Source: an uncultured Anaeroplasmataceae bacterium (lineage in GTDB: Bacteria; Bacillota_I; Bacilli_A; Acholeplasmatales; Anaeroplasmataceae). Taken from it: DNA of 41,140 nt. The translations under genes were made by a program, and so were the position numbers. The first letter of the stretch is position 1. Each line of letters begins with the position of its first letter. The stretch is from positions 1 to 41,140 of the forward strand of contig CALVBA010000009.1 of the NCBI GenBank assembly GCA_944325695.1, read 5' to 3'. Below are positions 1,460 to 29,838 of this stretch, one piece after another. Below the pieces are notes generated by a model. The model did no database searches. It was not told the origin of the DNA and saw only the letters and a program-made list of their open reading frames with translations.

Positions 1460-2154
1460 TTATTCCTTTAAGGCATCAAAAATTTTATTTTTAATTTCTT
1501 CATTATTCTTTAAAGATTCATCTTCTATCTCTTCGAAAATACCGTGATTTAAGATTATTATTTCATCACATAAATCTAAAGCTAATTCCAAAATATGCGT
1601 TGAAAAAATAATAATATGATCATTTTTAATCTTTTTTAATAGATTTTTCATTTCTTCAGCAACAATTACATCAAAAGATGTTAAAGGTTCGTCTAGTAAT
1701 AAAATTTTAGGTTTAGCAATGATGTTCGCAAGCATTTGCATTTTATTTTTCATCCCATGAGAATAATCTTTTATCAATTTATCGCGATCAGAATAATCAA
1801 TTTTTATTAGTTCAAAATATTCATCAATAGATTTTAAATCAGAAAGACGATTTTTATTAATATCTAAAAAAAATTTTATAAATTCTTGACCCGTTAAAAA
1901 TTCAGGAACGTTAGGAGTAGATGTTACATATCCGATATCTTCAGGTTCAACTTTACGGGCTTTTTCATCGATAATATAAAAATTCCCACCATCTATGTCA
2001 ATATCTTCGTTTAAACAGTTAAAAAATGTTGTTTTCCCAGCACCATTTCTACCTAATAGACCGTAGATTTTTCCATTTTCAAATTCAAAAGAAATATTTT
2101 TTAATACTTCTTTTTATCGAATTTTTTTTCTAAGTTTTCAATTATTAATTTCAT
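1460..2154 (-). pseudogene. ABC transporter ATP-binding protein, frameshifted near codon 15
   Basis: The frame after the shift encodes a complete ABC ATPase core: Walker A GRNGAGKTT, signature DYSHGMKNKMQ, Walker B KILLLDEP and the H-loop STH. The natural start is the ATG at 2154, behind the ribosome binding site AGGGAGAT. That frame reaches a TAA after MKLIIENLEKKFDKKKY-like codons (17 codons). Adding one A to the run of five A (five T at 2111-2115 on the plus strand) restores a continuous 231-aa protein beginning MKLIIENLEKKFDK, KEVLKNISFEF, the normal start of this family. The gene is thus either a recent pseudogene, phase-variable at a short homopolymer, or affected by a sequencing error. 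The downstream permease shows no decay, which favours a recent event or an error. Confidence 0.8.
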
Positions 2155-2270
2155 ATTATTATCTCCCTTTTTAAGGGTTATTATATCATAATTATTTTAA
2201 AAAGAAATATTAAAAAAACGCTAAATTTTAATCTTTTTGTATACAAAGTATTTTTTTTAAAAATAAAAAG

Positions 2271-15634: not shown

Positions 15635-15824
15635 GAAAAAAATAATTCAAATGATTAATTTTCATCTAAATTATTTTGTATTACGTTTTTATAAAAAACA
15701 AGTCAATTTTATACGATTTATATAAAATCAAAGATAAAAAAGAAAAATTAGTAATCTTATTTAAGAACAGCAAAAAAATGGTATAAATAGTTAATTTTTT
15801 TTCATAATATAAAAGGTGATTAAA

Positions 15825-16664
15825 ATAAGGTTAAGAACAGATATAGCATTAGAAGAATTAGCTTTAGAAAGAATGATTTCAAATGAAAAAATTAATATAA
15901 ATGAAGTTTTTTTAGATGCCATCAAAGCGAAAGAATTAAATAAAAAAGAAGGAACATATGTAACAATTGATTTTAGTAATCTCTTAACAAAAGAGTTTAT
16001 GCAAGAGGATATCCGGGAACAAGTAAGTGATGTATTAGCGCATTTTTTCACATTAATGGATATTAAAAAAGATGATACTGTTTTAATTTGTGGATTAGGT
16101 AATGATCAAGTAACACCAGATGCATTAGGACCAATTGTATGCGAAAATGTAATTGTAACAAATCATTTTTTTGTTCTAGATATCCAACATGATTTTATCA
16201 GACCCGTTACAAGTTTTATTCCAGGGGTTATGGGGCAAACGGGAATGGAATCAAGTGATATGTTAAAATCGTTAGTTGAAAGTTATAAACCTAGTTTAGT
16301 GATTGTTGTTGATGCATTAGCGACAAGAAGCATTAATAGAATATGTAAAAGTATTCAGATAACAGATGCTGGAATTAATCCGGGAAGTGGTGTAAAAAAC
16401 AAAAGAAAAGAAATATCTAAAGATGTTTTAAACACCAAGGTATTAGCTATTGGGATTCCTACAGTATGTGATTTAGAAGTTATTATTAATGATGTATTAA
16501 AACAAGCTTTAATGGAAACATCATATGATTTAGATAAAATTTATGATGAATATATTAAAGGACAATTTAGTTATATGGTTACTTTAAAAGATATTGATGA
16601 TCTAATCATCGATATGGCCGATATTGTCGCTATAAGCTTAAATAAAGTTTTACATAATATTTGA
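15825..16664 (+). CDS. gpr: Spore germination protease GPR
   Basis: The 279-aa product is the protease that degrades small acid-soluble spore proteins during germination (MEROPS A25). It starts RLRTDIALEELALERM and contains GLGNDQVTPDALGP, PGVMGQTGMESSDM and VVDALATRS, all family hallmarks. Ribosome binding site AAAGGTGAT (15812-15820) is correctly spaced only for the ATA at 15825; the GTG at 15816 lies within that site and has no other upstream. I therefore propose an AUA start, giving a protein that begins near RTD as GPRs do. A SigG-like CATAATA at 15803 with GTATA at 15781 is visible, but it would place the start site almost at the ribosome binding site, so it is uncertain. It ends in TGA. 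Confidence 0.9.
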   Translation: MRLRTDIALEELALERMISNEKININEVFLDAIKAKELNKKEGTYVTIDFSNLLTKEFMQEDIREQVSDVLAHFFTLMDIKKDDTVLICGLGNDQVTPDALGPIVCENVIVTNHFFVLDIQHDFIRPVTSFIPGVMGQTGMESSDMLKSLVESYKPSLVIVVDALATRSINRICKSIQITDAGINPGSGVKNKRKEISKDVLNTKVLAIGIPTVCDLEVIINDVLKQALMETSYDLDKIYDEYIKGQFSYMVTLKDIDDLIIDMADIVAISLNKVLHNI

Positions 16665-16688
16665 CAATATAATTAATAAATATATGAT
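16661..16688 (+). promoter_or_regulatory. Probable SigA promoter of the small membrane protein gene
   Basis: TTGACA, 16 bases, TATGAT, overlapping the last codons of gpr. The -10 region lies in a 17-base sequence (16676-16692) that is repeated exactly before pgsA. Confidence 0.55.
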
Positions 16689-16709
16689 ATAAATGTTTTA
16701 GGTGATAAT

Positions 16710-16931
16710 ATTAAAAAAGGATTTATAGTATTTTTAATAGCTGTAGCAATTATTATAATAATTATTGTGAATTTAGATTTAAAAAAAGAAATAACAGAAA
16801 GTATTGTCGTCGTTAAAACAAATAATATTATTTTGAATTTAGCAAAAAAAGTTGACTCGCTTATAACATCATTTTGTAAAATGATTTATAATTTATTAAC
16901 ATCAATTATAAAAGTACTTTTTGGACTTTAA
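16710..16931 (+). CDS. Small single-pass membrane protein with a non-canonical AUU start
   Basis: This is the content of the 326-base stretch between gpr and pgsA. The frame from 16680 to 16931 is open and contains no ATG, GTG or TTG near its beginning. AGGTGAT at 16700-16706 is spaced 7 bases (from AGG) for the ATT at 16710. From there it reads as a 73-aa protein: a KKG start, a membrane helix (about residues 4-21, FIVFLIAVAIIIIIIVNL), and an amphipathic C-terminal part. I recognise no family. The place after gpr is held by spoIIP in B. subtilis, but no SpoIIP similarity is visible. An ordinary promoter lies upstream. It may be missed by gene callers because of its start codon. Confidence 0.55.
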   Translation: MKKGFIVFLIAVAIIIIIIVNLDLKKEITESIVVVKTNNIILNLAKKVDSLITSFCKMIYNLLTSIIKVLFGL

Positions 16932-16990
16932 TTTTGATGTTTTTTTTATAAATATATGATATAATCATTTAAAATGGAGGTTTTGAAATT

Positions 16991-17557
16991 ATGAATTTAC
17001 CAAATAAATTAACAATGTTGAGAATTATAATAATTCCTGTAATGATTATTATTTCATGTATTTCTTTTTTAAATGAACAAGTTTTGTTTGCTAATATTTC
17101 AATTGCTAATTTTATAAACTTAATTTTATTTATGTTAGCATCTTTTACTGATTTTTTAGATGGGACTATTGCTAGAAAACGTAATTTAGTGACGACATTT
17201 GGGAAATTTGCTGACCCATTAGCTGATAAAATGTTAGTTTTTACGGCAATGATTATATTGTTAGAACAAGGAGTAATTCCTGGTTTTGTGGTTATTTTAA
17301 TTTTAATGCGAGAATTTATTGTTACTGGGGTACGTTTAGTGGCTGTTGAACATGGAACAGTCATTGCAGCTTCAAAATTAGGAAAATTAAAAACAGCCAC
17401 AACAATGCTTGCTCTTATTGTTTTATTCTTATTTCAATCTTCGAATATCGTGTTAGTTATTGGATTAGTATTTATTTATATTGCTTTAGCTTTAACAATT
17501 ATTTCGGGAGTAGAGTATTTCTATAAAAACCGTCAAGTTATTTTTGAAAGTATTTAA
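16991..17557 (+). CDS. pgsA: CDP-diacylglycerol-glycerol-3-phosphate 3-phosphatidyltransferase
   Basis: The 188-aa membrane enzyme makes phosphatidylglycerol phosphate, the first committed step to phosphatidylglycerol and cardiolipin. The CDP-alcohol phosphotransferase signature D-G-x2-A-R-x8-G-x3-D-x3-D is complete (DGTIARKR, then GKFADPLAD, residues about 57-79). Around five membrane helices are visible, and length is usual. The start ATG follows TGGAGGTTTTGAAATT. It lies directly before recA, as in many Bacillota, although cinA is missing between them. Confidence 0.93.
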   Translation: MNLPNKLTMLRIIIIPVMIIISCISFLNEQVLFANISIANFINLILFMLASFTDFLDGTIARKRNLVTTFGKFADPLADKMLVFTAMIILLEQGVIPGFVVILILMREFIVTGVRLVAVEHGTVIAASKLGKLKTATTMLALIVLFLFQSSNIVLVIGLVFIYIALALTIISGVEYFYKNRQVIFESI

Positions 17558-18671: not shown

Positions 18672-19676
18672 ATTAAAAAAATAATAGTTGGATTATTAAT
18701 AGTTTTTTTTATAACAGGTGGGAGAAAACTTGATGCTAAAGTGGCTAATTATATTGTTATGGATGCCAATAGTAAGTTAGTTTTAAAGGGTAATAATATT
18801 AATGAACAATTTTTAACAGCAAGTATATGTAAAGTCTTGACTGCAATTATAGTGCTTGAAAATTGTGATATTGATGAAGAGATAATTGTTACACCAAAAG
18901 ATTTACAAGTAACAGGTTCAAGTGTTTATTTGACGGTAGGTGAAAAGATTACATATCGTAGTTTAATTTATGGTTTGATGCTTAGAAGTGGAAATGATTG
19001 TGCATTAACGTTAGCTAATCATGCGTTTGGAAATTACGATTATTTTATCTTAATGATGAATGATTATGCTAAAAGACTTAAAATGACTAATTCCTCGTTT
19101 AATAATCCGTCTGGGCTTGATGAAGATACGACTAATTATTCCACACTTTATGACATGGCTTTATTGTCAGCATATTGCAGTTACAATAAGGAATTTATTA
19201 TGATTAATCAAACTAAAAGATATGCAGTTAAAACAAATGAAAAAAACTATTTATGGCAAAATAAGCATCGTTTAATTTTAAATAATCCTTATGTTATTGG
19301 TGGAAAGACAGGATTTACTAAAAAGGCTGGAAGAACCTTAATCACAATGGCACAAAAAGATGATAAACAAATTGTATGTGTTTCTTTTAAGATTGGTGAT
19401 GACTTTAACCTACACAATAATTTAATTAATGATGTTTTAAATAGTTATCAAAAAACTCGTGTTTTACGAAAAGGAATATACCGTAATGATTTGAATTTAG
19501 AATATTTTACTTATCTTGAAAATGATTTATATTATTTATTGCCTAAAAAAAATGAAATAGAAATAGTTTTTTTTCTATTTGAAACTCCTAAAAATGATGG
19601 AGTATGTGGATATATTTCGATTAAAATAAATGACTTTACAATAAAAGAGCAGCTTAAATCATATAATCATAAATAA
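18672..19676 (+). CDS. dacB: D-alanyl-D-alanine carboxypeptidase (DacB-like by position)
   Basis: The 334-aa protein is a low-molecular-mass penicillin-binding protein of the S11 family, with SxxK at S51-K54 (SICK), SGN near residue 110 and KTG near 215. The N-terminus KKIIVGLLIVFFITG is a signal peptide. It stands before spmA, spmB and rluB, exactly where B. subtilis has dacB (PBP5*), which trims cortex peptides in spores. The ribosome binding site GGTGAT (18661-18666) best fits the ATT at 18672; the TTG at 18666 overlaps that site. An AUU start gives MKKIIVG, a normal signal-peptide beginning. The activity is certain from the motifs; the spore role is inferred from the context. Confidence 0.88.
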   Translation: MKKIIVGLLIVFFITGGRKLDAKVANYIVMDANSKLVLKGNNINEQFLTASICKVLTAIIVLENCDIDEEIIVTPKDLQVTGSSVYLTVGEKITYRSLIYGLMLRSGNDCALTLANHAFGNYDYFILMMNDYAKRLKMTNSSFNNPSGLDEDTTNYSTLYDMALLSAYCSYNKEFIMINQTKRYAVKTNEKNYLWQNKHRLILNNPYVIGGKTGFTKKAGRTLITMAQKDDKQIVCVSFKIGDDFNLHNNLINDVLNSYQKTRVLRKGIYRNDLNLEYFTYLENDLYYLLPKKNEIEIVFFLFETPKNDGVCGYISIKINDFTIKEQLKSYNHK

Positions 19677-29397: not shown

Positions 29398-29838
29398 ATA
29401 AAAAGAGGATTACTTGGTGTAATTGTTATAATTTTTTTACTATTAACTTTTATTCCAGAAGGTTATAAATTAGAAAATGATATAAAATTTCAAATTACTA
29501 GTTATTATAAATATGAGGTTTGCTTATTAAATGCAGATAATCAATATAAAAAAGTTTTAATTGAAGATGAGTTTTCAATAGAAGGTATTATTGATTATTT
29601 AACATGTAAAAAAAATGGCTTACCTTTGGGATACTACTCTCCTTTAAATGAAAAGGTTAAATTATTAAATTATGATCTTGATGGAAAAAAACTTATTTTA
29701 TATTTTAATGATTCCTATTCACTTGATAATTTAGATATCAGTTTAAAATGTTTAAAAGAAACATTTTTATTAAATAATTATGATTTAAAACGAATCAATA
29801 TCATTACAAATGGAAAAGTAAATGTAATTGACCTTTAA
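29398..29838 (+). CDS. gerM: GerM-like spore germination protein (GerMN domain)
   Basis: The 146-aa product has an N-terminal membrane anchor (residues 4-18) and one GerMN-like domain: IIDYLTCKKNGLPLGYYSPL, VKLLNYDLDGKKLILYFNDSY, which follows the family pattern of a helix, a PLP/PL loop and paired strands. In B. subtilis gerM is followed by rph, rdgB and ysnB; here rdgB and ysnB follow, which supports the call. B. subtilis GerM has two such domains, so this one is shorter. AGGTGAT (29388-29394) fits an ATA start at 29398 (KRGLLGVIVIIF follows); the upstream GTG at 29383 has no ribosome binding site. Confidence 0.62.
   Translation: MKRGLLGVIVIIFLLLTFIPEGYKLENDIKFQITSYYKYEVCLLNADNQYKKVLIEDEFSIEGIIDYLTCKKNGLPLGYYSPLNEKVKLLNYDLDGKKLILYFNDSYSLDNLDISLKCLKETFLLNNYDLKRINIITNGKVNVIDL

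Follow-up and report, generated by a model that had tools for sequence, protein, structure and literature searches.

A candidate ATT-initiated small membrane-protein gene beside gpr and a spore-enriched set of ATT, ATA and ATC starts in an Anaeroplasmataceae genome

Between the germination protease gene gpr and pgsA, in a 41,140-nucleotide stretch of DNA from an uncultured Anaeroplasmataceae bacterium (the window), lies a short reading frame whose head offers no ordinary start codon, raising the question of whether it is a gene and, if so, where its translation begins. The frame (16680-16931) translates as IYDINVLGDNIKKGFIVFLIAVAIIIIIIVNLDL...KVLFGL and, just as the original prediction had it, holds no ATG, GTG or TTG near its beginning. 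The first canonical codon in frame is the GTG at 16767, which is not preceded by a Shine-Dalgarno sequence (SD) and from which a start would remove the membrane helix. The same prediction had placed a ribosome-binding site and an ATT at workable spacing near the head of the frame, and both are found there (Table 1). The residues that follow this ATT are KKGFIVFLIAVAIIIIIIV, and the AlphaFold2 model of the resulting protein (moderate confidence, mean pLDDT 68.5) has two predicted helices, spanning residues 3-29 and 38-71, the first of them corresponding to the membrane helix anticipated near the N-terminus. Searches of the protein against Pfam and NCBIfam gave no family match at E 0.01; its codon score is low and it is absent from the called genes. 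The promoter proposed upstream fared less well: its TTGACA-16-TATGAT sequence, of vegetative type, is present and is the top match among 19 in the region, but shuffled sequence yields 14.4 such sites, and a match of this kind is by itself weak evidence of promoter function, AT-rich DNA holding many. The small ORF and pgsA share a near-identical stretch in their promoter-like regions.

Table 1. Location and start codons of the features discussed; coordinates are those of the window unless a contig (C) and locus (L) are named.
Feature	Location	Strand	Start	Details and basis
ABC transporter ATPase	~1460-2240	-	normal	GGGAGATAATAATATGAAATTA
Presumed SigmaF/G-like promoter upstream of gpr	15780..15809	+		GGTATAA...CATAATA, against what we take to be the consensus
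SD of gpr	15814..15820	+		AGGTGAT, 4 nt before ATA
gpr (germination protease)	15825..16664	+	ATA	TIGR01441 2e-76
Promoter-like TTGACA-16-TATGAT	16661..16688	+		overlaps gpr stop codon; consensus scan 11/12
Near-identical stretch, two copies	16676-16692 and 16949-16965			ATAAATATATGATATAA
Start-proximal SD of small ORF	16700..16706	+		AGGTGAT, 3 nt before ATT 16710-16712
Small membrane protein gene (candidate)	16710..16931	+	ATT	73 aa, TAA stop at 16929; translation, syntenic orthologues with ATG
pgsA	16991..17557	+	ATG	downstream neighbour, synteny conserved; ORF list
dacB-like D-Ala-D-Ala carboxypeptidase	18672..19676	+	ATT	behind GGTGAT; Pfam Peptidase_S11 1e-48
GerM-like exported protein	29398..29838	+	ATA	behind AGGTGAT; adjoins rdgB/ysnB-like pair
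infC			ATT	conserved case, counted apart from the ~17 genes
Cluster from dacF to spoVAE	C5 66254-66296 (L085)
dpaA-like gene and dapA	C18 23030-24586 (L170)		GTG, ATA
PASTA-domain protein	C13 20618-21265 (L165)		ATA
Short hydrophobic ORF	C20 16734 (L098)	-	ATT	60 codons, strong SD

The conservation of the frame bears directly on the first part of the question. A tblastn search with the 83-aa frame in 60 relatives gave weak low-complexity matches only, after which orthologues were found through synteny. Inspection of the genes that follow gpr in other genomes of the family reveals that the order gpr - small ORF - pgsA recurs: the orthologue directly follows gpr in genomes G002 (L032) and G068 (L042) and lies slightly further downstream in several genus-7 genomes, with pgsA downstream of it in most relatives. 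Using a finder that demanded GGTGA or GGAGA before the start, 13 orthologues were recovered, and GGTGA followed by ATG is seen in 13/13, the ATG aligning with ATT 16710. Their N-terminus, M-K/N-K or similar, aligns with the ATT-AAA-AAA of the window, and the membrane helix is kept in all of them. The AUU-start reading thus gains support from relatives that put an ATG with a like SD at exactly this codon, and an ATG further upstream that would imply a different reading was looked for in them and not seen. Among genus-7 sequences dN/dS is 0.04-0.44 and mostly 0.05-0.3, in agreement with the Ka/Ks below 1 expected of a conserved frame and indicative of purifying selection on the gene in relatives.

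The protein of the window has itself diverged, and its link to the relatives by sequence comparison is modest. In global alignment 0/5000 segment-preserving shuffles reach its score against L032, a proportion of 0.0002 do so against L045, and against L038 it beats nearly all of them; hhalign against the relatives returns P = 8e-4 over 25 columns, and a profile built from the relatives alone does not rank the window protein first. Its orthology accordingly draws on synteny, initiation context, size and helix pattern together with the pairwise shuffle test. In a profile search across the class every convincing match fell within this GTDB family and in a gpr-bearing genome, while the others look like chance hydrophobic matches; a search for close relatives with gpr returned one unrelated distant match only. 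Together these comparisons indicate that the frame at 16710-16931 is a true gene for a small membrane protein. Given its linkage to gpr and its presence only in gpr-bearing genomes of the family, it probably encodes a spore-envelope or gpr-linked membrane protein. The ATT itself is not kept: the wider family, with which the one genome available for the genus was compared, has ATG at this codon, for which reason we class the small ORF as a variant and not as a conserved case of the infC, pcnB or ccpN type.

The original prediction treated this start as an unusual, isolated case between gpr and pgsA, a description that no longer holds, as gpr itself and about 15 other genes are alike. The gpr gene also has no canonical start, and the GTG chosen by the ORF finder (15816) sits inside its own SD. 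Consistent with the warning that standard callers would miss the small gene, it is lost under ATG/GTG/TTG-only calling. Within the window, the dacB-like gene, located upstream of spmA-spmB-like genes, and the GerM-like gene have comparable starts; the latter protein has no Pfam or NCBIfam match and is named from synteny only. Of a different nature is the ABC transporter ATPase gene, which shifts frame after ~17 codons near an A-rich stretch, reflecting either a sequencing error, a pseudogene or slippage.

We screened 1.28 Mb of this genome (~1080 genes) for a strong SD with no SD-served ATG, GTG or TTG, admitting any codon at the site, and recovered about 17 genes besides infC with ATT, ATA or ATC (ATH) and no canonical start. 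ATT precedes the small ORF, spoVT and the genes for the dacB-like enzyme, a DUF421 protein, MtaB, aspartokinase and a ZIP-type transporter; ATA precedes gpr, the gerM-like gene, dapA, glmU and the genes for an FAD oxidoreductase, a PASTA protein and a DUF308-like protein, as well as C1:60944; and ATC precedes cwlD and a dacF-like gene located upstream of spoIIAA-spoIIAB. In the clear cases the codon is always one of these three, the upstream open stretch is short, and SD stacking energies range from -9.8 to -17.5 kcal/mol. Gene identities were verified against NCBIfam and Pfam, whose models of SpoVT, GlmU, MtaB, aspartate kinase and DapA begin at or beside the ATH codon. The set derives from one draft assembly, the one genome available for its genus; the same screen of 398 kb of the family mate G002 gave two or three unclear candidates.

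Three candidates, FolC, an ftsW/spoVE-like gene and exonuclease III, were discarded because each has an ATG two to five codons further on, and sequencing error was rejected as the cause, with ~17 independent sites all bearing codons able to initiate. Several of the loci have features of their own. The dacF-spoIIAA-spoIIAB-spoVAC-spoVAD-spoVAE cluster is without sigF, and the best sigF match of the genome is a SigG-like gene. A dpaA-like gene is directly followed by the ATA-started dapA, a pairing that suggests a dipicolinate operon with weak starts. The ATA-started PASTA-domain protein is without a kinase domain and is encoded between genes resembling rlmN and rsgA, a position in which one might look for a PASTA kinase. 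Another short hydrophobic ORF, with a strong SD before an ATT, is possibly a further missed small protein.

The ATH group is strongly enriched in spore genes, among them gpr, spoVT, cwlD, the dacB-like and dacF-like genes and dapA of the dipicolinate operon. On the strict list ATH starts occur in 5/23 confirmed spore genes versus 12/1058 others (Fisher p = 1.4e-5), and on a looser spore list in 8/26 versus 9/1055; since the spore list was first compiled from inspection of N-termini, the checks against NCBIfam, Pfam and synteny coming afterwards, ordinary-start spore genes may be missed from these counts. The canonical-start spore genes used for comparison were confirmed by NCBIfam, Pfam or synteny, and the looser ATH list gives p = 2e-7 if 50 spore genes are assumed. 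An SD of GGTGA type likewise precedes 15/25 spore genes versus 172/1056 others (p = 1.5e-6).

In relatives, the small ORF, gpr, cwlD, spoVT and the dacB-, dacF- and gerM-like genes have their start at the very position of the noncanonical codon. At gpr the family mates use ATG (14), TTG (4) or GTG (1); at cwlD TTG or ATG predominates, G008 possibly having ATA; at the dacB-like gene TTG in 13, ATG in 4 and GTG in 1 (n=18); at the dacF-like gene ATG in 7, TTG in 2 and GTG in 1; and at the gerM-like gene ATG or TTG. For spoVT, NTG is found in 13/14 homologues matched across the class, and NTT only in this genome. These starts mostly follow an SD of the same GGTGA type, and weak initiation codons on spore genes are therefore a family-wide trend that this genome has taken furthest, ATH being its own form. 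By comparison, infC begins with ATT in nearly every family mate in which its start could be read, behind an SD of GGAGGTG type.

In light of the above, we propose that the small ORF is translated from AUU and belongs to a spore-enriched group whose translation is attenuated by a start-proximal SD combined with a weak start, a reading that we consider probable. The long AGGTGAT, 3 nt from the start, would position fMet-tRNA on a poorly pairing codon, such that AUU would still initiate, but only a fraction as often as AUG. The spore-enriched group would have moved from ATG, TTG or GTG to ATT, ATA or ATC behind a conserved GGTGAT-type site, and the weak starts could thereby limit how much is made of proteins that the cell needs only sparingly. 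An AGGTGAT 3-4 nt from an ATH codon is the anatomy of attenuated initiation, from which we infer translation that is low, not absent; in Staphylococcus aureus, where such attenuation has been shown for ccpN and cvfC1, an AUU or AUA behind an extended start-proximal SD yields roughly 10% of the output of AUG (PMC13009471). In Escherichia coli, loss of RsmH is reported to raise AUU initiation (PMC13317604). That the genes are expressed in sporulation, have been selected for low output and depend on IF3 may likewise be supposed; the vegetative type of the promoter-like site does not favour sporulation-specific expression of the small ORF. A bolder version, in which AUU-initiated IF3 would repress the AUH-start spore set while cells grow, and falling IF3 or 16S methylation in sporulating cells would jointly release gpr, spoVT, cwlD, dacB/F, the dipicolinate genes and the small membrane protein, seems to us very unlikely.

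The main rival to attenuation is decay: in a lineage losing sporulation selection would be relaxed, and starts would drift from ATG through TTG to ATH as the genes turned into pseudogenes. It keeps this standing because sporulation has been lost repeatedly around the clade, many times in related orders (PMC10868615), and because gpr is kept in about 20/55 family genomes and cwlD in 17; that no separate SigF was found in this genome also speaks for it. Yet the divergence of gpr, cwlD and dacB does not outpace that of their ATG- or TTG-started orthologues, their similarity to genera 6 and 7 being equal. Every ATH spore ORF is moreover full length with its active-site motifs intact, namely what we take to be the SxxK, SxN and KTG motifs of the DacB-like and DacF-like proteins, the metal-site residues of CwlD, the GPR motifs and the lysine region of DapA. 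The changes are confined to initiation-capable codons behind strong SDs, whereas neutral decay would also yield frameshifts, stops, lost SDs and codons such as ACG, AAG and AGG, and the essential glmU and mtaB have changed likewise. We therefore hold decay to be unlikely.

A global loosening, in which IF3, the initiator tRNA or 16S methylation tolerates AUU, AUA and AUC and the link to spores is only apparent, via weak expression, would account for the housekeeping or transport roles of roughly half the ATH genes, mtaB, glmU and aspartokinase among them. It is nevertheless quite unlikely, as IF3 is ordinary (TIGR00168 7e-59, ~65% identical to relatives) and ATT-started just as in them, spore genes are over-represented, and the spore genes of relatives already lean to TTG. 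Neither the initiator tRNA nor the 16S 3' end was found on the genome stretches scanned. Finally, that the ORF is untranslated or started elsewhere, by GTG 16767 or by re-initiation coupled to gpr, would fit its want of a canonical start, low codon score and weak profile match to relatives, but is highly improbable given that the GTG start would delete a helix conserved in all relatives, that the gpr stop 45 nt upstream of the ATT is too far for simple stop-start coupling, and that the SD and N-terminal residues of relatives align with those at the ATT.

Such a group makes it testable whether weak start codons set the dosage of spore proteins. Gene callers restricted to ATG, GTG and TTG shorten or overlook important spore genes in this genome, and hence calls of spore-gene absence in reduced Bacilli may be partly artefacts. 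Single genes with AUU or AUA starts are known, but the literature searched yielded no bacterium with ~17 of them concentrated among spore genes.

The view that AUU initiation is known mainly from enterobacterial infC, on which the original prediction leaned, is too narrow: in S. aureus cvfC1 starts with AUU and ccpN, citZ and infC with AUA (PMC13009471), and infC of the present family starts with ATT. The genes described here resemble that S. aureus set in having AUU or AUA behind an extended start-proximal SD, and cvfC1 is also small, at 61 aa; however, the set comprises four genes, against ~17 here with many spore genes, and the codons of cvfC1 and ccpN are kept across species (PMC13009471), while the ATH codon here is not kept in the family. 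The AUU start is shared with infC, that of this genome included, but infC regulates itself through a loop that is conserved family-wide, whereas the ATH genes would be targets without known feedback. In E. coli pcnB, AUU keeps the protein scarce (Binns and Masters 2002, cited in PMC13009471), as may be the case here, although this is a single gene of a gammaproteobacterium. The Streptomyces sigR gene starts with GTC and is deregulated on loss of IF3 repression (PMC5472188); it differs in its codon, in being a single gene and in having its IF3 dependence demonstrated, the present group being known from sequence, and it offers a parallel in that a development- or stress-type gene is held down by a noncanonical start, as we suppose for the spore genes of this bacterium.
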